From the NCBI RefSeq assembly GCF_910592395.1, contig NC_088325.1:13208109-13272108 (forward strand): a stretch of DNA of 64,000 nucleotides, in the 5' to 3' direction. Source of the DNA: Lineus longissimus (taxonomy: Eukaryota; Nemertea; Pilidiophora; Heteronemertea; Lineidae). Within the stretch, counting starts at the first letter, position 1, and each line of letters opens with the position of its first letter. The position numbers and the translations under genes are program-made. The notes below the pieces were generated by a model. That model did not search any database, was not told the origin of the DNA, and was given only the letters and a program-made list of their open reading frames with translations. Positions 45,933 through 57,510 of the stretch are shown in pieces.

Positions 45933-47735
45933 TTTGTAATGTTAAAAATACCAAAATTTGGAGAAATTCTGGAAATTCGTGGACTATGTTAACACTGCGC
46001 AGGCGCGACAGGTGCATCCGCTTACGTCTTATTCCTTAAAATTGGAACAAACGTAAAATGCACCAGTGGTTACGACAGCGCGCAAAAGCTATTTGTATGT
46101 ATAATTAATTTAATCGATTCAAAGTGATTATCATTAGGTGTTATCATTTATCATTTATTAAACAGGTGATAACTTTTCTGTAACATAGTTTTCGAATTTG
46201 TTTCGTTACAGCCGACTTGAAAAGTAACAAAGGTCAAAGGTCAAGGCTAATGTTGAATACTTTAACATTTTTCGATCTAAAAACTGCTTAAAATAATCGT
46301 GTGATTGATAAATCGGTAATATGCCACGAGATGTAAGTATAAAGTATACATTTCTTCCAATGTATGGTCTTTGATATTGTACATTTATGGTGTATCTTTG
46401 TGAAAAATAGGTTAGAAGATGGAAGTTCTCTCCAAAGTCCAAACTCCAAGTCAGTGATGTGCCATAACAACATAGGCCTACATCAGTACATCTATATGCA
46501 CTGACTGTGTCTGTGCAGTGGAGGGGGGGGGTAGGTCAAGTCTTCAAATTTGTGTACATGATCCCCCTGTACTATAGCTACATGTACATATCAACATGGC
46601 ATACTGATGGTACAGCCTAAAGCCCTCGGGACTTAAAATTATTCGGCCTAATGGATGGATGGATGATATGATTATTCGGCCTTTAAATAGGCCTATGGAT
46701 GGATGGATGTGATTGTTTAAAAGTGACGTAATTTGCTCACTCGCTTAAACATGGTCATACAGTTTATATCTTCGATCAGTTTGGGGCCAAGTTTTTTGTT
46801 TTATAACAAACACCAGTTTAAAATTTCAATCATGATGATTGCCTCATGCTAATTTCTTAATCTTATCATAATATTAAGTCGATTACTAATTTTAAGAACC
46901 CATTTCTCTTTACTCTTTACTCTTCTTCATAAACCTAACTTGACTTAAAATGTTGTACAGTGTAGATGGAAGCACATATTCGATGCCATTACCCGATGCA
47001 TGGTTTGAAGAATGCCCCCTCACATCCCAGTACTAATGCTACCAATACCATAGTTCACCCAACAATATTGGTTTTCTTGAATGTAAACACACATCCATCA
47101 TCATCTCACCACCAGCAACATAATTACAGCCAGGGTGAATGGTTTCCGTAATGCTTGATGTACACGTGATACTTTATTGATTTCTGTCTGGGTTGAGGTT
47201 GAATTGATGGGAATAAATTATATGGCGTAGTCAGCTGGTGTGATGGTGAGGATGAGGACAAGGTCATTCCATTGACTCGGAGTGTTTACTGCATGCTAGA
47301 AAGAGAGGAGTTTTCCTAAATTCTTTTTTTAAAGTTCACCCGTACAGAATGATATTTTCCAGTTGGTTTTATTAAGCTGAGAAATCATTCATAATTTATT
47401 ACTGTGCAAATAGGGTCAGGGAGCCATCATCCAAATCATTACATGAAGAATAGAAAATGCTTCAATTGACAGGTCCCTGCCAGTGTCTGTCGGCTCTCAA
47501 TTGCTTACAATACATGTACATGCTAGCCTATGGGAATGGCTGCACAATGCCATTGTACTCGTGATTGTCTTCTGAACAGTTGGATTTATATTTTTCTCAT
47601 GGGACTCAAAATCTGTCAGAGGGGGCAGTATATTTCTCATGTCATGTTTGTAATAAATTTTCACGCAGCTTTCAGTACAACACAAATCTTTTCTATCTTT
47701 TTGGATAATTTCAGTTGGAACTTGAGCATACCAAA
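45933..47735. other. Intergenic region between divergent pafah1b2-like and npl genes
   Basis: About 1.8 kb separates the two start regions if the npl first exon is near 47736. It probably holds both promoters. Visible features are two GGATGGATGGATG runs (about 46650 and 46695) and a poly-G tract near 46525. I see no convincing core promoter motif. Confidence 0.45.
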
Positions 47736-47750
47736 ATGCCTGTTACCGAT
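47736..47750 (+). CDS. npl: Candidate first coding exon of npl
   Basis: CCAAAATGCC starts a five-codon frame (MPVTD) that ends exactly at a donor GTAGGT in phase 0. This is the phase required by the acceptor at 49258. An acceptor-like TTTCAG lies 21 bp upstream. The match is suggestive only; another upstream ATG exon could be the real one. Confidence 0.3.
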
Positions 47751-47846
47751 GTAGGTATCGTTGTCACAGAAATACATGCCTCCCTCTTTTTGATCCGCTT
47801 CTTGCTTTTGGATGTGAAGGTTGACCGAGAGGCTTTGCTAGTCTGT

Positions 47847-48161
47847 CATTGGCTAATATCTATAAAGACTAGTAAATGCTTTTAGTACAGTTTTCTACAG
47901 AGATGGCTTGTGTAAATGTACGTGAAGTTTAAAGTAAAAGCATTTACTGGTCTTTTATAAAGACTAGTAAATGCTTTTACTACAGTTTACTACAGAGATG
48001 GCTTGTGTAAATGTACATGAAGTTTAAAGTAAAAGCATTTACTGGTCTTTTATAAAGACTAGTAAATGCTTTTACTACAGTTTTCTACAGAGATGGCTAG
48101 TGTAAATGTACATGAAGTTTAAAGTAAAAGCATTTACTAGTCTTTTATAAATATCAGCCAA
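47847..48161. mobile_element. Palindromic MITE, AAAGACTAGCAAATGC family, copy 3, tandem trimer
   Basis: ATAAAGACTAGTAAATGC recurs at 47862, 47957 and 48052 with an exact 95-bp period. Each unit is itself an inverted repeat, and CATTGGCTAATAT / ATATCAGCCAATG bound the whole cluster. Confidence 0.9.
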
Positions 48162-48249
48162 TGCGTCTGTCTAACTCGTTTATTTTCCTCACCTGCCTGT
48201 GCTCGTGCATCTTGACCCGCAAATGTTCTGCGATCGCTAAATCACTCAC

Positions 48250-48703
48250 CCAAAGCTCGATAGTTGTGTGCAGGCAAATGCATGAGAGTCCTGATGGTCC
48301 TCATGTACTGCATTTTGTGCTGTCTTCTAGAAAATGCTAATCCAGTATTGTTTTCAGCAAGGTTACGATTCTTTTTTTGAGTGGGGCCTGGGGGCAATCT
48401 CGGTGTTCCCCCAACTCCAACAGCCTTGCGCTCCTCAATCAAATTTGCCTCCATGACAGCTGAAAGGACGTCGCTGTTGCCGAGATAAAATTCTGTGTTC
48501 AAAGAGGCTTTCGGAGATGTCGAAGCCATGAATGCTGCTTTCTTTAAAATATTAGAATCCTGTTTGTTCATGATACTCAGCCTCTGGGCTGCCGCTTGAA
48601 CCTCACAAAATTTGATTTTTAAGGGTCCCACATCATTTTTGGACGGTCGCTTAGTGTAGAGCTCTCCGAAGAGATTTCCAATGACATACAAAGGGTCCTT
48701 TCT
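48250..48703 (-). CDS. Unidentified minus-strand exon candidate
   Basis: About 150 codons are open on the minus strand, reading KDPLYVIGNLFGELYTKRPS, then KAAFMASTSPKASLN and MQYMRTIRTLMHLPAH. It is bounded by a pyrimidine-rich acceptor candidate (about 48704) and a strong donor (TTGG|GTGAGT, 48250/48249). I do not recognise a family. Composition looks protein-like (mixed charge, few rare residues). It lies antisense to npl intron 1 and could be an exon of an overlapping or nested gene. The alternative is a chance frame or the remnant of a transposon protein. Confidence 0.45.
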
Positions 48704-48737
48704 TCATTTTGAAGGGTAAACAGACATGTTTTGGAGG

Positions 48738-49155
48738 TTAAAGGTCTGTGTCCACTTGTGCGTTTTGGGCTGCCTTGGCGCTGCGTTATCACGGAGCGTA
48801 TTACGCATAGAAACTGCGCATTGTAAAGTTCAATGGCTTTTCAAAGAACCCTGGCCTTTTGTGCATGACACGGTCTGCACTGCGCTACGTAATACGGCCC
48901 ATAAAGAAATTTTCTTTATGAAGCGGATCACGCAACGTAGTTCTGGTATGTGTTATGTGATCAGTCAATAGAAACTGACCATAGGCCTAGGATATGAAAG
49001 GGTGGCAATATGTGCAAAGGGATCAAGGAAGGCATGCGGACCAATGGACATAGTATTACGCCCGTATTACGCCCGTATTACGCAACGCGTTACATATGCG
49101 CAGTGCGCTGCATGATAGCGCACGTAATAACGCACCCAGTGGACACGGGCCTTAA
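48738..49155. mobile_element. TTAA-flanked palindromic element rich in GTAATACG
   Basis: The left end TTAA-AGGTCTGTGTCCACT pairs with the right end AGTGGACACGGGCC-TTAA. The interior contains repeated CGTATTACGC and GCGTTAT phrases in both orientations. TTAA flanks with long imperfect TIRs fit a piggyBac-like non-autonomous element (inferred). Confidence 0.75.
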
Positions 49156-49257
49156 CTGAAGCCCTGTATCAGATACGTGTATGACCAGAACGTGCTTAGG
49201 AAACTTGCTCAAAAAGAGTGATCAATTTACACTATGCACTTCCGGTCTTATTTTCAG

Positions 49258-49319
49258 GGCCATGATAACAAGGTGTGTGGCCTTGTGGCTGCTGTCTTCA
49301 CACCCTTCAACGCTAATGG
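49258..49319 (+). CDS. npl: npl exon 2
   Basis: Encodes GHDNKVCGLVAAVFTPFNAN, the first beta strand of the barrel (mammalian QGLVAATITPM). The acceptor TTTCAG|GGC is in phase 0 and the donor GG|GTAAGT leaves two bases. No in-frame Met precedes it, so an upstream start exon is required. Confidence 0.93.
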
Positions 49320-50960
49320 GTAAGTTAAATACAAACGATCCTTTCATTCTTCTGCCGTGTTCGACTGCTCCAGCTGTAAGTGTAAAGGGTGCATGCGTCA
49401 CCATGGCTGTTAGCAGCGCAGTGCCTGTGCTCTGCTAGTTCATGTCAAAGTCCTGTGGTTTGGAGCTTGGCATCATGGGGCAGCAGTAGCGCAGTGGAAG
49501 AGAGTCGGCCTCATGATCAGGAGGTCGTGGGTTCGACTCCCGGTCGTGTCACTGCTTAGTTTCCCTACTGGTCGAGTTCAAGTGAGCACCTTCTGGTTGC
49601 CCCTTGAAACCCCTGATTGATTTCTGTGGAGACCGGGGTAATAATATGATATCCCAAAGCGCTTTGAGCGAGAACTATAGTGTCACGGAATTGCGCTATA
49701 TAAAAGACTCATTATTATTATTATCATAAGGAACCTTCATTTCTGTATTTGTTAAAAAAAGGCGCAGATAGTTGTCACTGTGGTTTGAAGAATGTTGTCG
49801 TTCGTAGGCCCAGTCAGTGGTTCTATCATCTCCAAATGTAAGTTTTAGAGGTCGCACCAAGTTATACATCATGTTGTATAGGTTCAGTTGGAGTTTAAGT
49901 TACAGGTGTTGAAAGGAATCATGAAGTAGTTTCACAATGTTAACTCTGCCATCTGAAGGACGAAATTCTCATTTTGATGCTCTCACATTTCGTTCTCTTC
50001 CAGGGACCTCAACTTGGATGTGATTGAGCCGTACATCGATCATCTCTATGAGAATCAAGTTGTCAATGTCTTCGGTAAGGAGAATAGAAAGTTCCTTAAA
50101 TTTCGTCGCAATGGTAAAAACTGGTGCCAACATTTCCAGTACTGCCAAGATTTGGCCCGGGTTCAAATATTTTTTTTGTAGGATCGAAGTGGGATCTCTC
50201 TCTCGACTCCTTCTAATTGCATGTGTCCTTGAAATTTCATGCCCTTGTCAGTCCCGATAGTCCTTAAAGTGATACTATGATGTGATTTACAACTTTGCGG
50301 CAATACGTCCGTTTTTAATTGTTGATCACAAATGTAAAGCTCAAATTTTCCGTTTTTGATTAGATTTATTATAAAATCGCTGAATGTAAACCACCGCGAC
50401 CGCGAAAATGTTCATGTTGTGACGTCATCAATGAAAACGGCATCGAAGCGAGCCGTCCGGGCAGGATTAAACCATCAATTTCTAGAAAATGTGCATTTCG
50501 AAAACCTTACCGATTTATGAGAAAGTGACGTAGTCATTTGTCAAAAACAGCAAAAACATTATATGGTGAAATTTTACACGCGTTACCCTCTAACAAGCTC
50601 ATACTGCCTGTGCGAAAGCCGATTGAGCAATCAGGCCCAGGACTAATGACTGTTTCCCCTTCAGTGAATGGTACGACTGGTGAGGGCTTGTCTATGACGA
50701 TAGAAGAAAGGAAAAGACATGCAGAGATGTGGGTCAAAGCTGGTGCTGGAAAGTAAGGCCTACTTTCATATTAGACTTGTAATTTTGCGAGTTGACACAG
50801 TCTAAACAACAGGCCTTTCAATTACGTTGAGACCTCTACACCCTGTATTTTTTTAGCCTATTTTGGGGACATGTTTTTTTTTGCTTTTTAGCTCACCTCT
50901 TAGCAGAGGTGAGCTTATCCCATACCGTGGCGTCCGTCGTCCGTCGTCGTCGTCGACGTT

Positions 50961-50993
<33 letters not shown>

Positions 50994-53900
50994 CGTCGTC
51001 CGTTAGCAGGGCACGTTTCGTAACTGTTAGAGCTATTGAGTTGAAACTTGGTACACATGTACCCTTATGTAATGACACCTTGGAGACCAAGTTTCGGTCC
51101 GATTCGTTTCATGGTTTGGCCACCAGGGGGCCAAACGTTAAAAGTGAAAATATGCAATATCTCCCTTAATAGTAGTCGGGAAATTTTGAAAAAAATATGG
51201 TAGGTACTTCTAGCAAAGGTGCATCATATATCCTCCGGGTTTTTGATTTGACCTCCTTTTCAAGGTCACAGAGGTCAAATGGTGTAAATTGGCCGTTAGG
51301 ATGTAACGATGGCACGTTTCTAAACTGCAATGACTATTGATACCAAATTTGGTACACATTTACCCCTTAGTCAGGTGATCTCAGGGACCGAAGTTTGGTC
51401 CAATATGATTCACCACTTGACCACCAGGGGGCAAAATCCAAAAACCTTAAAAATGTGATTATTCCTTAACTTCTTGCCCGATTGCCACCAATTTGATATC
51501 ATGGGTACATCTAACCACCATACAGTATATGTCACACAGGTTTTTAATTTGACCTTCTTGTCAAGGTCACAGAGGTCAAATGGCGTAAATTCGCCGTCAG
51601 GCCGTAACTATGGCACATTTCTTAACTGCAATGACTATTGATCACAAATTAAGTACACATGTACCCCTTGGTCAGGTGATCTCAGGTACCGAAGTTTGGT
51701 GCGATCTGATTTGCCGTTTGGCCTCCAGGGAGGGGGCCAAATCCTAAATTCTTCAAAATGCCATTATTCATAGTAATGACTTGCCCGATTGGCACCAATT
51801 TTATATCATAGGTACATCTAATTCTAACAACCATTCAATGTGTCACCCGGGTCTTCTTTGGTTGACCTACTTTTCAAGGTCACAGAGGTCGAATGTACTG
51901 TAAATTGGCCATTTTGGGGAAATTGTAATTGCTTGGACCTACATCAAACCTAACACTACATGACACAATACGATGCTCTTTATCCATCTTTCCTCCACAT
52001 GAGGTGAGCACAATGGCCCTGGCCATTTCATTAGCTTAATTTGGGGACATTTCATCGCGCCAATTTGCCTGAACAGCGACGTCATAAATCAAAGTTAGTG
52101 ACTGATATCACCACATACACCTGAAAAATCATAATTTTAGGGTAAAACTATAAAATTAGGCCATTTGGATGAGATTTGGTTATGTTAGGGGTCAAAAAAC
52201 GCTTCAGGGGGTCATATTATTTTTAAAAAAATAAAAATAAAAAAAATAAATAAAAAAAATAGACCTAATTTGGGGACATCCTGTACGGCCTACACCGTTA
52301 TACGGTGTAGGAATCATGTAATTGAGAGGCCTGAACAATGTACATTTAGATATGACGCGGACTAGGCCAGATACCAACAGTTGTGTACCTGTATTGTAAG
52401 GAGCAAGAACAGTGTAATGAACGTGTGCACTGTAGCAGAACATGTGACTGGTGATCTGAGGGTTGTTGGTTCAAGGCTTGGCCAGTGTCAGACAGTACTT
52501 TCAACAGGCTCAAAATGGCCACAAGAAGCTCTGAGTGTGTCTGCCTAGGTTTCTACGGAAATATTTCTGCAGGATATTTGTGCTTCATGTGTGGTTCTTC
52601 ATCTGTTTCAGGTTGGACAAAATCATCATTCACGTCGGTTCTCACAACCTCATAGAATCAAAAGACCTGGTCAGTATTTCTTGTTTGTCCGTTGGGCATT
52701 TCATAGTCACAGGTAAAATCAGCTAAGAGTCCTAATTTTGACCCATTTCATTAGAACAAGACTTTAGTGCAGCTCAGTTTCTTTGACTATGATGACATTG
52801 TCATTAGAGAGGGAGACGTCCTTACCTAAGACACAAGGTACACCTTTCTATCAAGGTGAATATGACTTAGAGTGAATTAACTTTATTTTGAGACACCCAG
52901 TATACATGTAATCTCCACAGATAGGTTTTCGGCCTTGGAGTTCCTGGTAAGGAAATTGCCCTGGTCTCACGTCTTTCGTCCTCTTTCCAGGCGACCCACG
53001 CCCAGGAGATCGGAGCCAGTGCGATTGCCGCCTTACCGTCATTCTTCTTCAAACCACAGTCAGCGGGTATGCATTATTATAAAAAACTGTTTCATCTCAA
53101 AACACATGATATCCCTTTGTGACATCTTGAAGAAATCTGTCTGGCTAAAGTTAGAAATTTTTTCAAAATCATATCTGCAAAAATGAGAGTAGTCTTCCCC
53201 AAATTGAAAATGAGCAAATTTGCCAACTTTTAGCTTTGCAAGCATTTAACAGTTCACATTACTATGGCTCTAGCCATTGTGGGTTAGATTTTATTCACGA
53301 CTTCAGTTTGCCAGCCACAACACCAAGAAATACTCCTGAAAATCTGACAGAGTATTAAAACAGCTGTACTTTTGCCTTTTCAGAGGATTTAGTTGAGTAC
53401 TGCCGGCAGATCGCGGAGTGTGCTCCAGACCTACCCTTCTACTATTACCACCTTCCCAGGATGACTGGGGTCACATGTGAGTATGGAGAACCCCGACCTG
53501 TGAGACTACATGGTCTTGTGCTGTCAGTTTAGTCATCTTGACTCTAAGGTGCTGTGCAAATGGATGGTTTCTGTCACTGAGACCTGCGATCATAATCGCT
53601 GCGATATGGGACAGAAATATCTCTTATCTGCGGGTGAAACCGGCCATTGTTGGGTTTGATTGTGATCGTGAGTCCCTACATCACTGATTCATGTCGGTGC
53701 TGTGCGAACGGACGGTTTGATCGCTGCGATATGGGACAGAAATATCTCTTATCTGCGGGTAAAACTGGCCATTGTTGGGTTTGACTGTGATCCTAAGTCC
53801 CTACATCACCGATTCATGTCACGACATGATCTTCTCTGCCTGCCACTTTAGTCAACCATCCCATTACTGTTTACTTTTACAAAGGAGGCCTAAAATAAAC

Positions 53901-56900
53901 AATATTTGAGGTATGGTAAACAAGAAATGCATTATGTATTCCATTGATGCTATTTCATCCCCAAGTGCCTGGCGGTCTTCTGGTTTCAACTGGTCTCTTT
54001 CAGTAAACATGGTGAAGGTGTTTGAGCTGGCCAAGGATGAGATACCCACATTGCACGGTATCAAATATTCAGACACCTCGTTCGATGAAGCTTGCAAAAT
54101 CATGGACATGCATGGAGGAAAATATCAAGTTTTCTGTGGTGCGGACGACGTGAGTCGCAGAGTTTTTGGTCACAGTTTTAACCTAATAATATAAAAAATA
54201 TCCTTTATCCAGACCCTCCTTTTACTGCAGCTGATTTGGCTTTCCAGTCAATTCATACCTGATAATCAGTAACATCGTTTAACATCATCCTTGCCTGACT
54301 CAATAACCAACTTCTTCCATGATATTCTAACATTTCCATTCCAGCCATTTTCCTTCCCTTCACAACTTGACTGAAAATTTTTCAAAGCTCGGCTTTCAGT
54401 AATGAATTTTTAACCCCTTTGCCACGGATGAGGTGCATAGGGCAGTGTCAATCTTAGCATGAAGAGTTTTGATGCAAAAGCAGCTGGACACCATTTGGAA
54501 AAAAAATGAGATATCTCTGGTAAAATAAAGCTCACAGCACCCTTGGTCTGTGTACCAAAGCACACAAAGTGCTATCAAAACTTGATGATAACGATGTCAC
54601 TATTTATGCAAAAAAAATGTTAAGAGTGACGGTATGAAAGTTGCGTCCACATGAAACGATCTGAAATGGATTCAGTGGCTTCTGAAACTCATAACATGCT
54701 TAACGGATGTAACAGAGGAAAAACATCAAGGTCCAACCGGGGATTGAACCCGGGACCTCTCGTTTATAAGGCCATCACTCTACCGACTGAGCTAAAGGGA
54801 ATTTCCCTCTAGCCTGGGCTAGTAGGAATGATGCCACCACTACACGGATGATACACATTGAGCTGAGTTTTTAACAAAGATGTCGGTGGTACTTTCCTTG
54901 ACAAGGGTGCGGAGCCCGGGGAAAGTTTGTAAGGGGGATCGATGCTTTACGAGTTGGCTTTGAGAAGTAGTCGACGGTCCCTTTCATCCTAGACTGAATG
55001 TTCAAGTAAGAAGAGGGAACCTTCATTTCATTATCACATCAACAACCTTGAATGTCACCACCTGACCTTGACCTTACCGTACGACCTTGACCTTCCTTCC
55101 AGTTGATATGAGAGATTTCTTCGACAAGGCCGAAAATACGATCCCGAATTTGGCGGGCGTCAAATTTCAGTCGACGCATCTGATGGAGGCGTCCCAGGTG
55201 CAGTGCATGCATAATGGGCATTTCCAGGTTATGTTGGGGCTGGACGAGGTAAGAAAAACCAAGGACGTCAAATCACCAGTTTTAGTTGCATTCTGGACTT
55301 TTTCCTCTTACTAAATGCTAAATTTGATGGCTGGAATCAATAGATCTCTGTCTCAGCTCTCTCTGGGTCTTAGATTTTTTCAAATTGGGCCGTAAGTAAA
55401 CACTTAAGAGGCATTTCTATGCAATGGTGAGCTGATCTTGGGACAAGACTTTTTGCCTTTAGGCCATACCTCATTGGCATCCCTGGAAAGGAATACAGGT
55501 CACTCACAGAAATAACTAGCCAAAAAAAGCAGTCTTTACATCAAGATCATCCAGCCACGTCCTATGCACTGGCCACAACTTTTTGTTGTTGCTGAATATC
55601 CAGGCCTGTTAGGACTCTTAGCTGATTCTACCTGTGACTATGAAACGCCCAACGGACAAACAAGAAATACTGACCAGGTCTTTTGATTCTATGAGGTTGT
55701 GAGAACCGACGTGAATGATGATTTTGTCCAACCTGAAGAAACAGATGAAGAACCACAAATATCCTGCAGAAATATTTCCGTAGAAACCTAGGCAGACACA
55801 TTCAGAGATTCTTGTGGCCAATTTGAGTCAATGACAGAGTGTTCCTTTCCCTAGGTCTACCTTGGCGCCATGGCCCTTGGCATCGACTGGGCGGTCGGAT
55901 CAACCTATAACTTCCTCTCCAACGTCGTCCATCGCATGGTCGAGGCGTTCAACAAGAGTGACAACTATACGGCACGCGTGGAGCAGAAACGTGTGCAGGA
56001 TGTCATCAGCATCAGGAACAAATACGGTGAGTGGAGAATGGTGGTTTATTTTTAGGAAGTGACTACTTGGCAAGCCCGGCTTACCAAACAGCGACTTTTT
56101 CTTGTCCTGAATGGAGAGCCGAACTCAGTAATATTAAAGTAAAGTCTCCAGCTCGCCAAACAGGGTAGATTTTTTACCTGTTTGGCAAGCCCGGCTGGCC
56201 GAACAGGGTGGCTTTTTAGTGCTGTTTGGCAAGCGGCTCTCCAAACAGGACAAAAAAAGATGCCTGTTGGGCGAGCGGCTTGCCAAATAGACCCGGCCTT
56301 ATTTTTATCATCCAGTCGAGAGCACCTAAGCAAACTTTGCATGGTCATTACTGGCTCTTTGGACAATATTTGGCCGCGTTGTAGTGAAGGAGGAAACCTG
56401 TAGGAACCCTAGGTTGTCAAAGAGAGTCATCCTCTATCAGATGAGTATACAAAGTTGGATTCTTTTCCACTCTGATGTTGATATAACTGTGACTGGAATG
56501 CCCTTTTTGAACATTGGTGTTGCTGTTAGTCTGTTTATCATCACGTCGAGAGCACCTTAGCAAACTTTGCATGGTCATTACTGGCTCTTTGGACAATATT
56601 TGGCCGCGTTGTAGTGAAGGAGGAAACCCGTAGGAACCCTAGGTTGTCAAAGAGAGTCATCCTCTATCAGATGAGTACACCAAGTCGGATTATTTTCCAC
56701 TCTGATGTTGATGTTACTGTGTCTGGAATGCCCTTTTTGAACATTGGTGTTGCTGTTAGTCTGTTTATCATCACGTTGAGAGCACCTTAGCAAACTTTGC
56801 ATGGTCATTACTGGCTCTTTGGACAATATTTTGGCGCGTTGTAGTGCAGGAGAAAACCTGTAGGAACCCTAGGTTGTCAAAGAGAGTCGTCCTCTATCAG

Positions 56901-57510
56901 ATGAGTATACAAAGTTGGATTCTTTTCCACTCTGATGTTGATATAACTGTGACTGGAATGCCCTTTTTCGAACATTGGTGTTGCTGTTGGTCTCTGCGCC
57001 AACACAAAATCTCGAATCATGATTGGTGAGTAATATCAGCTATCTATACTTTTGTTTGCAGGTGGTGGTGTTGCCGAACTGAAAGAGATCTTCCGGTTCG
57101 TCGGACCAGATGTCGGTCCGCCCCGCTTCCCCCTCAAGCCACTATCGGCAGAGAAGAGAGACGGCCTCAAACAGGAACTCACCAATATTGGCTTCTTCTA
57201 CTGGACGAAGGATCACCTGACACCACCCCAATCGCCGCTGACGCAGCGGACGAAGGACAAACGACGCACGCTGCATCGGGCGACGAGTCTTCTCACGGAC
57301 GACGGCGACCCACCATCGTCTCCTAAAGCCACGACCGACCCACATGGATCGTTCAACCATTCTCACAGTCATGGTTCCTTCAGCCATGGTCACCATACTG
57401 GGTCGATGGGTCACGGTACGAAGCATCGTCACGCCAGTGGGAGCAGCAGTGGCAGTGGGTCACACCTCGAGAAGCAGACGTCAAATACTAGTCTCCTGAC
57501 GGAAGGCTAG
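49258..57510 (+). CDS. npl: N-acetylneuraminate lyase (sialic acid aldolase) with mutually exclusive exons
   Basis: Exons are 49258-49319, 50004-50074, 50665-50752, 52612-52669, 52991-53066, 53384-53476, either 54004-54149 or 55103-55248, 55855-56026 and 57062-57510, giving 404 codons plus a short upstream start exon (candidate 47736-47750). The enzyme cleaves Neu5Ac to ManNAc and pyruvate in the cytosol. Family marks, counted from the 49258 exon, are GLVAAVFTPF (8-17), NGTTGEG (46-52), IIIHVG, FYYYHLP (137-143) with the catalytic Tyr, the Schiff-base Lys170 in either alternative exon, GSTYN (213-217) and GPPRFPL (274-280). The vertebrate protein is about 320 aa; the excess is a 99-residue His/Ser/Gly-rich C-terminal tail. 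Two odd features are the alternative-exon pair and an inverted copy of exon 52612-52669 in a later intron. Confidence 0.95.
49478..49735 (+). mobile_element. tRNA-derived SINE with (ATT)n tail
   Basis: The A box TAGCGCAGTGG (about 49487-49497) and B box GGGTTCGACTCCC (about 49529-49541) are canonical. The body ends GCGCTATATAAAAGACTC followed by ATTATTATTATT. It lies in npl intron 2, same orientation as the gene. Confidence 0.88.
50004..50074 (+). CDS. npl: npl exon 3
   Basis: Encodes DLNLDVIEPYIDHLYENQVV and NVF, matching the mammalian INFSVIGQYVDYL segment. The acceptor is TTCCAG|GG and the donor TTCG|GTAAGG. Confidence 0.93.
50264..50593 (+). mobile_element. 335-bp TTAA-flanked element, copy 3
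   Basis: The element begins TTAAAGTGATACTATG and ends GCGTTACCCTCTAAC (right TTAA mutated). It fills most of npl intron 3 and stops about 70 bp before the next exon. It is closely similar to 14894-15221. Confidence 0.85.
50665..50752 (+). CDS. npl: npl exon 4 (GTTGE substrate loop)
   Basis: Encodes VNGTTGEGLSMTIEERKRHA to AGAGK. GTTGE is the carboxylate-binding loop of the family. The acceptor is CTTCAG|TG and the donor GGAAA|GTAAGG. Confidence 0.95.
50891..52031. mobile_element. 1.1-kb repeat element with CGTCGTC tract and three 300-bp modules
   Basis: It starts GCTCACCTCTTAGCAGAGGT and ends with GAGGTGAGC (inverted) plus GGCCCTGGCC. After a (CGTCGTC)n tract come three diverged modules of about 300 bp, each with TTGGTACACATNTACCCNTT, CCACCAGGGGG-type and CAAGGTCACAGAGGTC phrases. 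I recognise this type as a dispersed repeat of marine invertebrate genomes from memory. It has no coding frame and lies in npl intron 4. Confidence 0.75.
52204..52611. other. npl intron 4, 3' part
   Basis: Contains an A-rich tract (52219-52260) and, from about 52510, the upstream arm of the inverted exon duplication. No other gene signal. Confidence 0.5.
52510..52735 (+). repeat. Inverted-duplication arm containing npl exon 5
   Basis: This segment (ATGGCCACAAGAA to AATCAGCTAAGAGTCCTAA) recurs in reverse complement at 55608-55832. The match includes intronic sequence on both sides of the exon, about 97% identical by eye apart from an 11-nt and a 3-nt indel. Confidence 0.95.
52612..52669 (+). 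CDS. npl: npl exon 5
   Basis: Encodes LDKIIIHVGSHNLIESKDL, matching mammalian LDQVIIHVGALSLKESQEL. Length is 58 nt, so skipping it would shift the frame. The donor GTCAGT is weak. An identical antisense copy lies at 55675-55732. Confidence 0.95.
52991..53066 (+). CDS. npl: npl exon 6
   Basis: Encodes ATHAQEIGASAIAALPSFFF KPQSA, matching the mammalian [20 protein letters not shown] segment. The acceptor is TTCCAG|GC and the donor GCGG|GTATGC. Confidence 0.94.
53384..53476 (+). CDS. npl: npl exon 7 (catalytic Tyr)
   Basis: Encodes EDLVEYCRQIAECAPDLPFY YYHLPRMTGVT. YYYH(L/I)P carries the conserved active-site tyrosine. It ends in phase 1 (ACA T|GTGAGT), which sets the reading of the two alternative exons that follow. 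Confidence 0.95.
53560..53830. repeat. 125-bp tandem duplication in an npl intron
   Basis: TCGCTGCGATATGGGACAGA recurs at about 53596 and 53721. The flanking CCCTACATCAC and GATTCATGTC are repeated as well. It lies between exon 7 and alternative exon 8A. Confidence 0.85.
54004..54149 (+). CDS. npl: npl alternative exon 8A
   Basis: 146 nt, entering in phase 1 and leaving in phase 0. Encodes LNMVKVFELAKDEIPTLHGI KYSDTS and ends QVFCGADD. The Schiff-base Lys is in HGIKYSDT, very close to mammalian QGLKFSDT. The final substrate-contact motif GxDE is GADD here. Sites are TTTCAG|TA and GAC|GTGAGT. Use of 8A and 8B together puts TGA in frame at the third codon of 8B. Confidence 0.93.
54735..54805 (-). 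mobile_element. tRNA-like SINE head or tRNA pseudogene
   Basis: The minus strand has A box TAGCTCAGTCGGTAGAG and B box GGGTTCAATCCCC with a good T arm. The acceptor stem (TTCCCTT against TTGGACC) and anticodon stem do not pair, so it is not a functional tRNA. It lies between the alternative npl exons. Confidence 0.7.
55103..55248 (+). CDS. npl: npl alternative exon 8B
   Basis: 146 nt with the same phases as 8A. Encodes FDMRDFFDKAENTIPNLAGV KFQSTH and ends QVMLGLDE. The Schiff-base Lys is kept (AGVKFQS) and the GxDE motif is canonical (GLDE). 18 of 49 residues match 8A. Sites are TTCCAG|TT and GAG|GTAAGA. Confidence 0.93.
55608..55832 (-). repeat. npl: Antisense copy of npl exon 5 with flanking intron
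   Basis: This is the reverse complement of 52510-52735. The 58-nt exon (55675-55732) is identical to the sense exon, and its splice sites are present but only on the minus strand, so the sense transcript cannot use it. It ends about 22 bp before exon 9 (55855). The copied introns exclude retroposition of a spliced mRNA. Confidence 0.95.
55855..56026 (+). CDS. npl: npl exon 9
   Basis: Encodes VYLGAMALGIDWAVGSTYNF to SIRNKY. GSTYN is the conserved motif lining the substrate pocket. It accepts phase 0, as both 8A and 8B require, and ends TACG|GTGAG. Confidence 0.95.
56050..57011. repeat. Repeats in the last npl intron: GTTTGGCAAGC segment and three 230-bp units
   Basis: 56050-56300 contains GTTTGGCAAGC and GCTTGCCAAA phrases in both orientations. 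From AGCACCT at 56321, 56551 and 56781 a 230-bp unit is repeated three times with few differences. The open frames here are shared by the copies and are not exons. Confidence 0.92.
57062..57510 (+). CDS. npl: npl exon 10 (C-terminus with long tail)
   Basis: Encodes GGGVAELKEIFRFVGPDVGP PRFPL through NIGFFYWTK, where vertebrate NPL nearly ends. It then continues 99 residues to LLTEG and TAG. The tail has TPPQSPLT, a basic KDKRRTLHR stretch and a His/Ser/Gly-rich run (SHSHGSFSHGHHTGS). It lies in the same exon with no frame break. Confidence 0.93.

Follow-up and report, generated by a model that had tools for sequence, protein, structure and literature searches.

A tandem pair of alternative catalytic exons in an N-acetylneuraminate lyase-like gene of the ribbon worm Lineus longissimus

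When one aldolase gene holds two versions of the exon that carries its catalytic lysine, are both put to use, are they used one at a time, and would the two resulting enzymes act on the same sugar acid? These questions are raised by an N-acetylneuraminate lyase-like (NPL-like, class I aldolase) gene of Lineus longissimus, whose coding part occupies positions 46321-57510 (+) of the 64,000-nt stretch of DNA analysed here (the window; Table 1). The gene model that includes exon 8A and exon 1b, the latter absent from a preliminary description of the locus, agrees letter for letter, over 420 residues, with the NCBI prediction N-acetylneuraminate lyase-like isoform X2 (P0001; 99% identity to the query isoform in the protein search), and that prediction therefore uses junctions 53476-54004 and 54149-55855. 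Exon 1b has an ATG of its own, and direct splicing of exon 1a to exon 2 is also in frame.

Table 1 Coding exons of the NPL-like gene (positions within the window)
Feature	Positions	Strand	Basis
Exon 1a, coding part (start codon, MPRD)	46321..46332	+	GT donor; in model equal to NCBI isoform X2
Exon 1b, 36 nt, in-frame, LELEHTKMPVTD	47715..47750	+	Match to NCBI isoform X2
Exon 2	49258..49319	+	Frame model; match to isoform X2
Exon 3	50004..50074	+	Frame model; match to isoform X2
Exon 4, NGTTGEG pyruvate-binding motif (= E. coli Ser47-Thr48 positions)	50665..50752	+	Frame model, alignment, isoform X2
Exon 5	52612..52669	+	Frame model; match to isoform X2
Exon 6	52991..53066	+	Frame model; match to isoform X2
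Exon 7, YYYH motif (= E. coli Tyr137 position); last base opens shared codon	53384..53476	+	Frame model, alignment, isoform X2
Exon 8A, alternative catalytic cassette A (Lys174; Ser176; GADD)	54004..54149	+	Frame model, alignment; used in NCBI isoform X2
Exon 8B, alternative catalytic cassette B (Lys174; Gln176; GLDE)	55103..55248	+	Frame model, alignment; B-like cassettes in P0002, P0004
Exon 9, GSTYN motif (= E. coli Ser208 position)	55855..56026	+	Frame model, alignment, isoform X2
Exon 10, barrel end + Ser/His-rich tail, stop codon	57062..57510	+	Frame model; match to isoform X2

The eighth coding exon appears to have been duplicated in tandem, such that each mature mRNA would carry either 8A or 8B. 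The preliminary description had placed both exons correctly to the base, and its account of the pair was borne out: both measure 146 nt and have equal phases (one base taken from exon 7, the end falling on a codon boundary), they share 18 of 49 encoded residues, both hold the Schiff-base lysine, and the alignment confirmed the motifs GADD in 8A and GLDE in 8B. The BLOSUM62 score between the two segments (94) lies far above every one of 20,000 shuffles of 8B (mean -46.6, SD 15.0, maximum 16), which excludes a chance resemblance, and a search of the 64-kb window with exon 8A plus flanking residues as query recovered 8B (E = 2.4e-9). Identical bases numbered 26, 32, and 17 of 49 at codon positions 1, 2, and 3, respectively, a pattern which, as judged from these counts, is that of an old coding duplication. 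A recent local duplication or an assembly repeat was rejected as their origin, as their DNA is only 50.7% identical and neither they nor their flanks appeared in a repeat search (seeds of 12, minimum 30 nt). Searching the same window with four exon-8 queries returned nothing better than E = 0.66 beyond 8A and 8B, and no third copy was seen there. The two are thus neighbouring, homologous internal exons of equal length with conserved phase and splice borders, which are among the features given for mutually exclusive pairs in the accessible text of PMC3228551.

The exon length itself makes the choice exclusive at the level of protein. Since 146 leaves a remainder of 2 on division by 3, inclusion of both exons or of neither shifts the frame and stops translation early. 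As the preliminary description had proposed, joining 8A to 8B brings a stop at the third codon of 8B, omitting both shifts the frame, and only the choice of a single exon keeps it. The shifted frame ends at a stop within exon 9, and 8A or 8B alone each gives a 408-residue open frame. Transcripts with both exons or with neither would presumably be removed by nonsense-mediated decay, and frame-dependent loss of the wrong products is the simplest explanation of exclusivity left once other devices are considered. Steric exclusion by a short intron was rejected, with 953 nt separating 8A from 8B, as was U2/U12 incompatibility: each exon lies between an AG acceptor and a GT donor, and the donors are ordinary, matching the consensus at 6/9 (8A) and 7/9 (8B) positions, with all ten donors scored matching at 6 or 7. 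A distant branch point is the device reported for OGDH (available passages of PMC7969005); none of the ten acceptors scored has a longer AG-free stretch in front of it than 8B (87 nt), but this lies far from the donor, and this candidate was likewise set aside. Competing RNA structures also found no support, the best duplexes between introns (-55.1 kcal/mol for intron 7 with 8A-8B, -48.2 kcal/mol for intron 7 with 8B-9, and -53.3 kcal/mol for 8A-8B with 8B-9) each failing to surpass the strongest of six single-base shuffles, and the fold of intron 7 being no better than its shuffles (z -0.29). A weak or long-range intron structure may nevertheless lie behind the exclusivity.

Several repeats were observed in the introns of this gene. 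Exon 5 with its flanks (52509-52735) has an inverted copy in the 8B-9 intron (55609-55827), the longer arm measuring 129 nt (98%) and the shorter 78 nt (95%), with no difference inside exon 5 and 92% identity overall with two gaps; these were the only two occurrences found in the genome. Within the pre-mRNA, the inverted repeat could form a long stem over both exon 5 splice sites, looping out exons 6 to 8B, with exon skipping, circular RNA, or editing as possible consequences; alternatively, the copy may reflect a recent local rearrangement or an assembly artefact. Intronic tandem arrays were seen at 56304-56993 (3 copies, 230-nt spacing), 47861-48164 (3 copies, 95-nt spacing), and 51195-51895 (2 to 3 copies, about 300-nt spacing).

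To place the two cassettes among homologs, we took the best 120 of 5,492 and the best 120 of 4,547 matches of two protein searches (E ≤ 0.001), together 173 different proteins. Four of them were set apart by score among the matches listed, all predicted proteins with one cassette only: P0001; P0002 and P0003, predicted isoforms X5 and X3 of Tubulanus polymorphus, each representing a cluster of 3 sequences; and P0004, a 412-residue protein that probably derives from an mRNA, being encoded on a 1,923-base contig. Isoform X3 (P0003) has an A-like cassette, and isoform X5 (P0002) a B-like one, as does P0004; outside the cassette, the only differences seen by eye between the two Tubulanus isoforms are the N-terminus and an insert of 14 residues. 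The Schiff-base lysine of the GxK motif is kept in 5/5 of the nemertean and P0004 cassettes. The exon 10 tail (57200-57510) bears TSLLT-like motifs close to its beginning and at its extreme end, which recur in Tubulanus and P0004 and are absent from the remaining homologs of the same alignment.

Tubulanus belongs to the class Palaeonemertea and Lineus to Pilidiophora. The preliminary description had set decay of one exon in all related species against its claim; in the one other species checked, both A-like and B-like isoforms are present. Mutually exclusive use of two active-site cassettes, as first claimed, is strongly supported, now also by these predicted isoforms, and we consider that both exons are almost certainly functional and used one at a time. 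It is highly improbable, in our estimate, that 8B is an unused relic or a rarely spliced exon and that the animal makes only the A form. This reading draws on the sole Lineus protein of the gene among the matches listed, which uses 8A; 8B is in no Lineus protein there, a set in which 90%-identity clustering would hide an 8B isoform. Limiting the protein search to the 8B segment gave one candidate and no scored match. It is opposed by the open frame of 8B, its ordinary splice sites and invariant Lys and Asp, and by the identity of 8B to the B cassettes of P0002 (27/49) and P0004 (32/49), as an unused exon that old should have decayed.

We then asked whether the exon pairs of the two worms go back to one duplication or to several. 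Outside the cassette, Lineus, P0002, and P0004 formed a clade with support of 97/94 (tree of 27 selected rows). By BLOSUM62 every cassette was nearest to its own kind (A-A 125; B-B 129, 165, and 127; A-B 63 to 94). Plain identities over 49 positions, with the 3-residue insertion of P0003 left out, were 22 for A-A, 27, 32, and 27 for B-B, and 17 to 21 for A-B, and the A-A value is equalled by Lineus A against the brachiopod Lingula (22/49). A cassette tree (34 rows selected from 175; 49 columns) grouped the A forms with support of 94/80 and the B forms with 89/65. When four rows were compared, the orthologous grouping was best (resampling 0.927), with AU values of 0.079 for independent duplication and 0.029 for the crossed grouping; adding P0004 gave 0.94, 0.077, and 0.015, respectively. 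On the 34-row set, holding the Lineus pair together (AU p = 0.055) or the Tubulanus pair together (p = 0.161) was not rejected at 0.05. One old duplication, before the split of Palaeonemertea and Pilidiophora, is thus probably the better account of these alignments than independent ones, favoured though not proven.

A second NPL-like gene of Lineus bears on the age of the pair. P0005 (locus L004, G000:C19:43000-52900, minus strand) lies near the other end of the same chromosome and is 48% identical to the A form; it has Gln at position 192, Thr at 167, and Ala at 208 (E. coli numbering), and no tail. The stretch corresponding to exons 7 and 8 is a single exon in this gene, and no second copy of the exon-8 stretch was found in the 9.9 kb examined. 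Its cassette grouped with the A cassettes in the 34-row tree (92/76); perhaps the exon was duplicated before P0005 diverged, with B lost there, or else the grouping may be noise. No branch of the best tree separated the five nemertean cassettes, without P0005, from all other rows, though such a grouping was not rejected (p = 0.39). Pfam PF00701 (DHDPS/NAL superfamily) scored above its cut-off in all of P0001 to P0005. A further match of the Pfam search, C6 (L002, L005), was discarded as an NPL gene, being weak to NPL queries (best E = 0.028), and was taken for another aldolase of the superfamily.

What, then, do the two exons exchange? Residues are numbered here as in E. coli (Lineus positions are 9 to 10 higher), and the comparison set is the 169 other listed homologs (173 minus P0001 to P0004), which are nearest matches and not a family-wide sample. 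Lys165 and Asp191 are present in 5/5 cassettes and in 169/169 of these homologs. Position 192 is Glu in 161 of the 169 (Gln 5, Ser 1, Asp 1, Gly 1) and in 3/3 B cassettes, and it is Asp (Lineus) or Leu (Tubulanus) in the A cassettes. At position 167 the others have Thr (115), Ser (49), or another residue (5), never Gln; the A cassettes have Ser, and the B cassettes Gln (Lineus, P0004) or Ser (Tubulanus). With Ser at the Thr167 position in 8A and Gln in 8B, the two Lineus cassettes deviate from the usual site at different ends. Position 189, Gly in 167/169 and Ala in 2/169 of the others, is Ile in the Tubulanus B form and Ala in that of P0004. The sugar-tail motif reads GADD and GLDE in Lineus A and B, GNDL and ICDE in Tubulanus A and B, and ACDE in P0004. 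To judge from these residues, the B form is itself not wholly canonical, with Gln167 in 2/3 and Ile or Ala at 189 in 2/3. Position 172 is Asp in A (2/2) and Met in B (3/3); Asp occurs there in 3/169 others, always together with Glu192. Across 2 A and 3 B cassettes, the two kinds have fixed differences at positions 168, 172, and 188, and share no residue at 192. Beyond the cassette, the residue aligned with Ser47 is Cys in Tubulanus, and the one aligned with Thr48 is Ala in P0004. The predicted protein P0123 of Solemya velum contains several NILFGSDQVS-like units where other NPLs have one GxDE motif; from its sequence, this may be either an annotation error or a real repeat.

AlphaFold models, built from 50-row alignments, were examined for the Tubulanus forms P0002 and P0003 only. 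The barrel of P0002 is confident (ten-residue means of 94 to 99); P0003 has lower means in two places, 87 and 80 in the cassette close to its 3-residue insertion, and 87 and 72 around the insert of 14 residues, and the tails of both models are not confident. The best solved match to both was human NPL (6arh; rmsd 1.5 Angstrom for P0002 and 2.3 Angstrom for P0003). The P0002 model predicts that the cassette (residues 163-211) contains helices at 165-172 and 189-201 and strands at 179-184 and 204-207. The exon choice would accordingly exchange two helices and two barrel strands that bear the catalytic lysine, the Thr167 equivalent, and the motif from Gly189 to Glu192, together with the equivalent of E. 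coli Tyr172, which would pack against residue 192 of the neighbouring subunit.

Published work on the bacterial enzyme gives these differences a possible meaning. According to the available passages of PMC3014015, Glu192 of E. coli NAL binds the C8-C9 diol, sandwiched between Tyr190 and Tyr172 of the neighbouring subunit; significant activity on Neu5Ac is found only with Glu192 or Gln192, and E192D and E192N retain <15% of wild-type kcat/Km on this substrate. The accessible part of PMC6559660 reports that Thr167 stabilises the transition state (kcat of T167S in a similar range, of T167A fourfold lower), that Asn at this position in the A. salmonicida enzyme makes two hydrogen bonds to the substrate, and that at E. 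coli position 47 Cys lowers turnover and Thr slightly raises it. From these variants, the A form should be weak on Neu5Ac, and the B form should still contact the sugar tail, while the middle of its site is altered. We would expect the B form, by retaining the contact of Glu192 with the glycerol tail of sialic acid, to be sialate-lyase-like, and the A form, with Asp or Leu at 192 and hence an altered tail pocket, to prefer another 2-keto-3-deoxy sugar acid. The preliminary argument for two specificities is, in our analysis, strengthened by Glu192 in 3/3 B cassettes, Asp or Leu in 2/2 A cassettes, and the E. coli variants, and that the two forms differ in substrate as proposed seems on balance slightly the likelier outcome.

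The same evidence can be read with exclusive splicing being real and one form, most likely A, being weak or inactive on sugar acids, tuning mixed tetramers or serving a non-enzymatic role; the choice of exon would then set the level of activity and create no second specificity. We regard this as somewhat unlikely. It would account for the loss of Glu192 from both A cassettes with unlike replacements (Asp, Leu), at a position where the E. coli enzyme tolerates so little, for the contact of the Tyr172-equivalent position with the neighbouring subunit (both from the portions available of PMC3014015), and for the faster change of A (Lineus-Tubulanus identity 22/49, against 27/49 for B and 159/253 for the rest of the barrel). 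Yet A keeps the Schiff-base lysine, Asp191, and the hydroxyl of Ser167, and loss of some of these would be expected in a form without catalytic duty. Decidedly unlikely, in turn, is that both forms catalyse one reaction with unchanged specificity and are distinguished by their stability, kinetics, or regulation, for instance by tissue or life stage. The catalytic lysine and Asp191 common to both cassettes, and the similar range of kcat reported for T167S, would fit such a scheme; the consistent A/B differences at 172 and 192 argue against it, 192 being the position that sets substrate preference in E. coli. The odd residues at 47, 48, and 189 could also mean that one form is impaired or regulatory, or that the enzyme acts on a non-sialic substrate.

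Profile scores add a weak and mixed hint of another substrate for the nemertean forms. Against the NCBIfam models for archaeal KDG aldolase and the better of those for NAL, scores in bits (KDG/NAL) were 141.4/141.7 for P0001, 148.1/146.4 for P0002, 140.2/132.0 for P0003, 119.0/135.9 for P0004, and 148.0/136.9 for P0005, and two vertebrate NPLs and that of Lingula preferred the NAL model by 58, 45, and 19 bits. All of P0001 to P0005 fell below the NCBIfam NAL cut-offs, as did the control NPLs of bat, duck, and Lingula.

Returning to the reading that we prefer, in which the two forms differ in substrate, its fullest version would hold that splicing has switched one 2-keto-3-deoxy sugar acid aldolase between two substrate classes from the common ancestor of Palaeonemertea and Pilidiophora onward, if not earlier. 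Because the cassette supplies the contact to position 192 of the neighbour, co-expressed A and B forms could assemble into mixed tetramers with hybrid active sites, and possibly a graded specificity. As a whole this version is unlikely. If the two forms do differ in substrate, the gene would be a natural counterpart of the engineering of residue 192 in E. coli NAL, with two settings held in one gene and picked by splicing. The Lineus A and B forms, identical outside 49 residues, would then offer a clean pair for studying how specificity evolves in an aldolase barrel, and would prompt one to ask what acidic sugars are processed by ribbon worms.

An alternative catalytic exon of NPL was not found described in a literature search of titles and abstract openings, covering few subscription journals, nor are alternative NPL exons of this type mentioned in the passages covered of the review PMC13214540; a search of titles and abstract openings on nemertean sialic acid returned nothing on the topic. 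The A and B isoforms of Tubulanus and the A isoform of Lineus are already present among NCBI gene predictions. A switch of enzyme specificity by mutually exclusive exons is known from coq-2.

The closest parallel is with coq-2, whose mutually exclusive exons (coq-2a/coq-2e) occur in C. elegans, parasitic helminths, annelids, and molluscs (PMC7434440, in the text available). There too, two homologous internal exons, of which one or the other is used, alter near-substrate residues of an enzyme core, and the pair is conserved between phyla. However, coq-2 encodes a polyprenyltransferase, and genetic work showed that efficient synthesis of rhodoquinone requires its e-form, whereas the Lineus gene encodes an aldolase, its cassette carries the catalytic lysine itself, and its two forms are predicted to differ in function. 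Exon choice likewise swaps a substrate-facing segment of a metabolic enzyme in human ACSL6, although that enzyme is an acyl-CoA synthetase and the segment is its fatty acid gate domain rather than a cassette with a catalytic lysine (accessible sections of PMC1543647). Human NPL (6arh) is the best solved match by sequence and fold and shares the Schiff-base lysine; the nemertean forms differ from animal NPL at 167, 189, or 192 and in their long tail. The engineered E192X variants of E. coli NAL resemble the nemertean pair in that a change at position 192 alters substrate preference within the same barrel (available passages of PMC3014015), but these were made by mutagenesis, whereas Lineus would keep both settings in one gene and let splicing choose between them.
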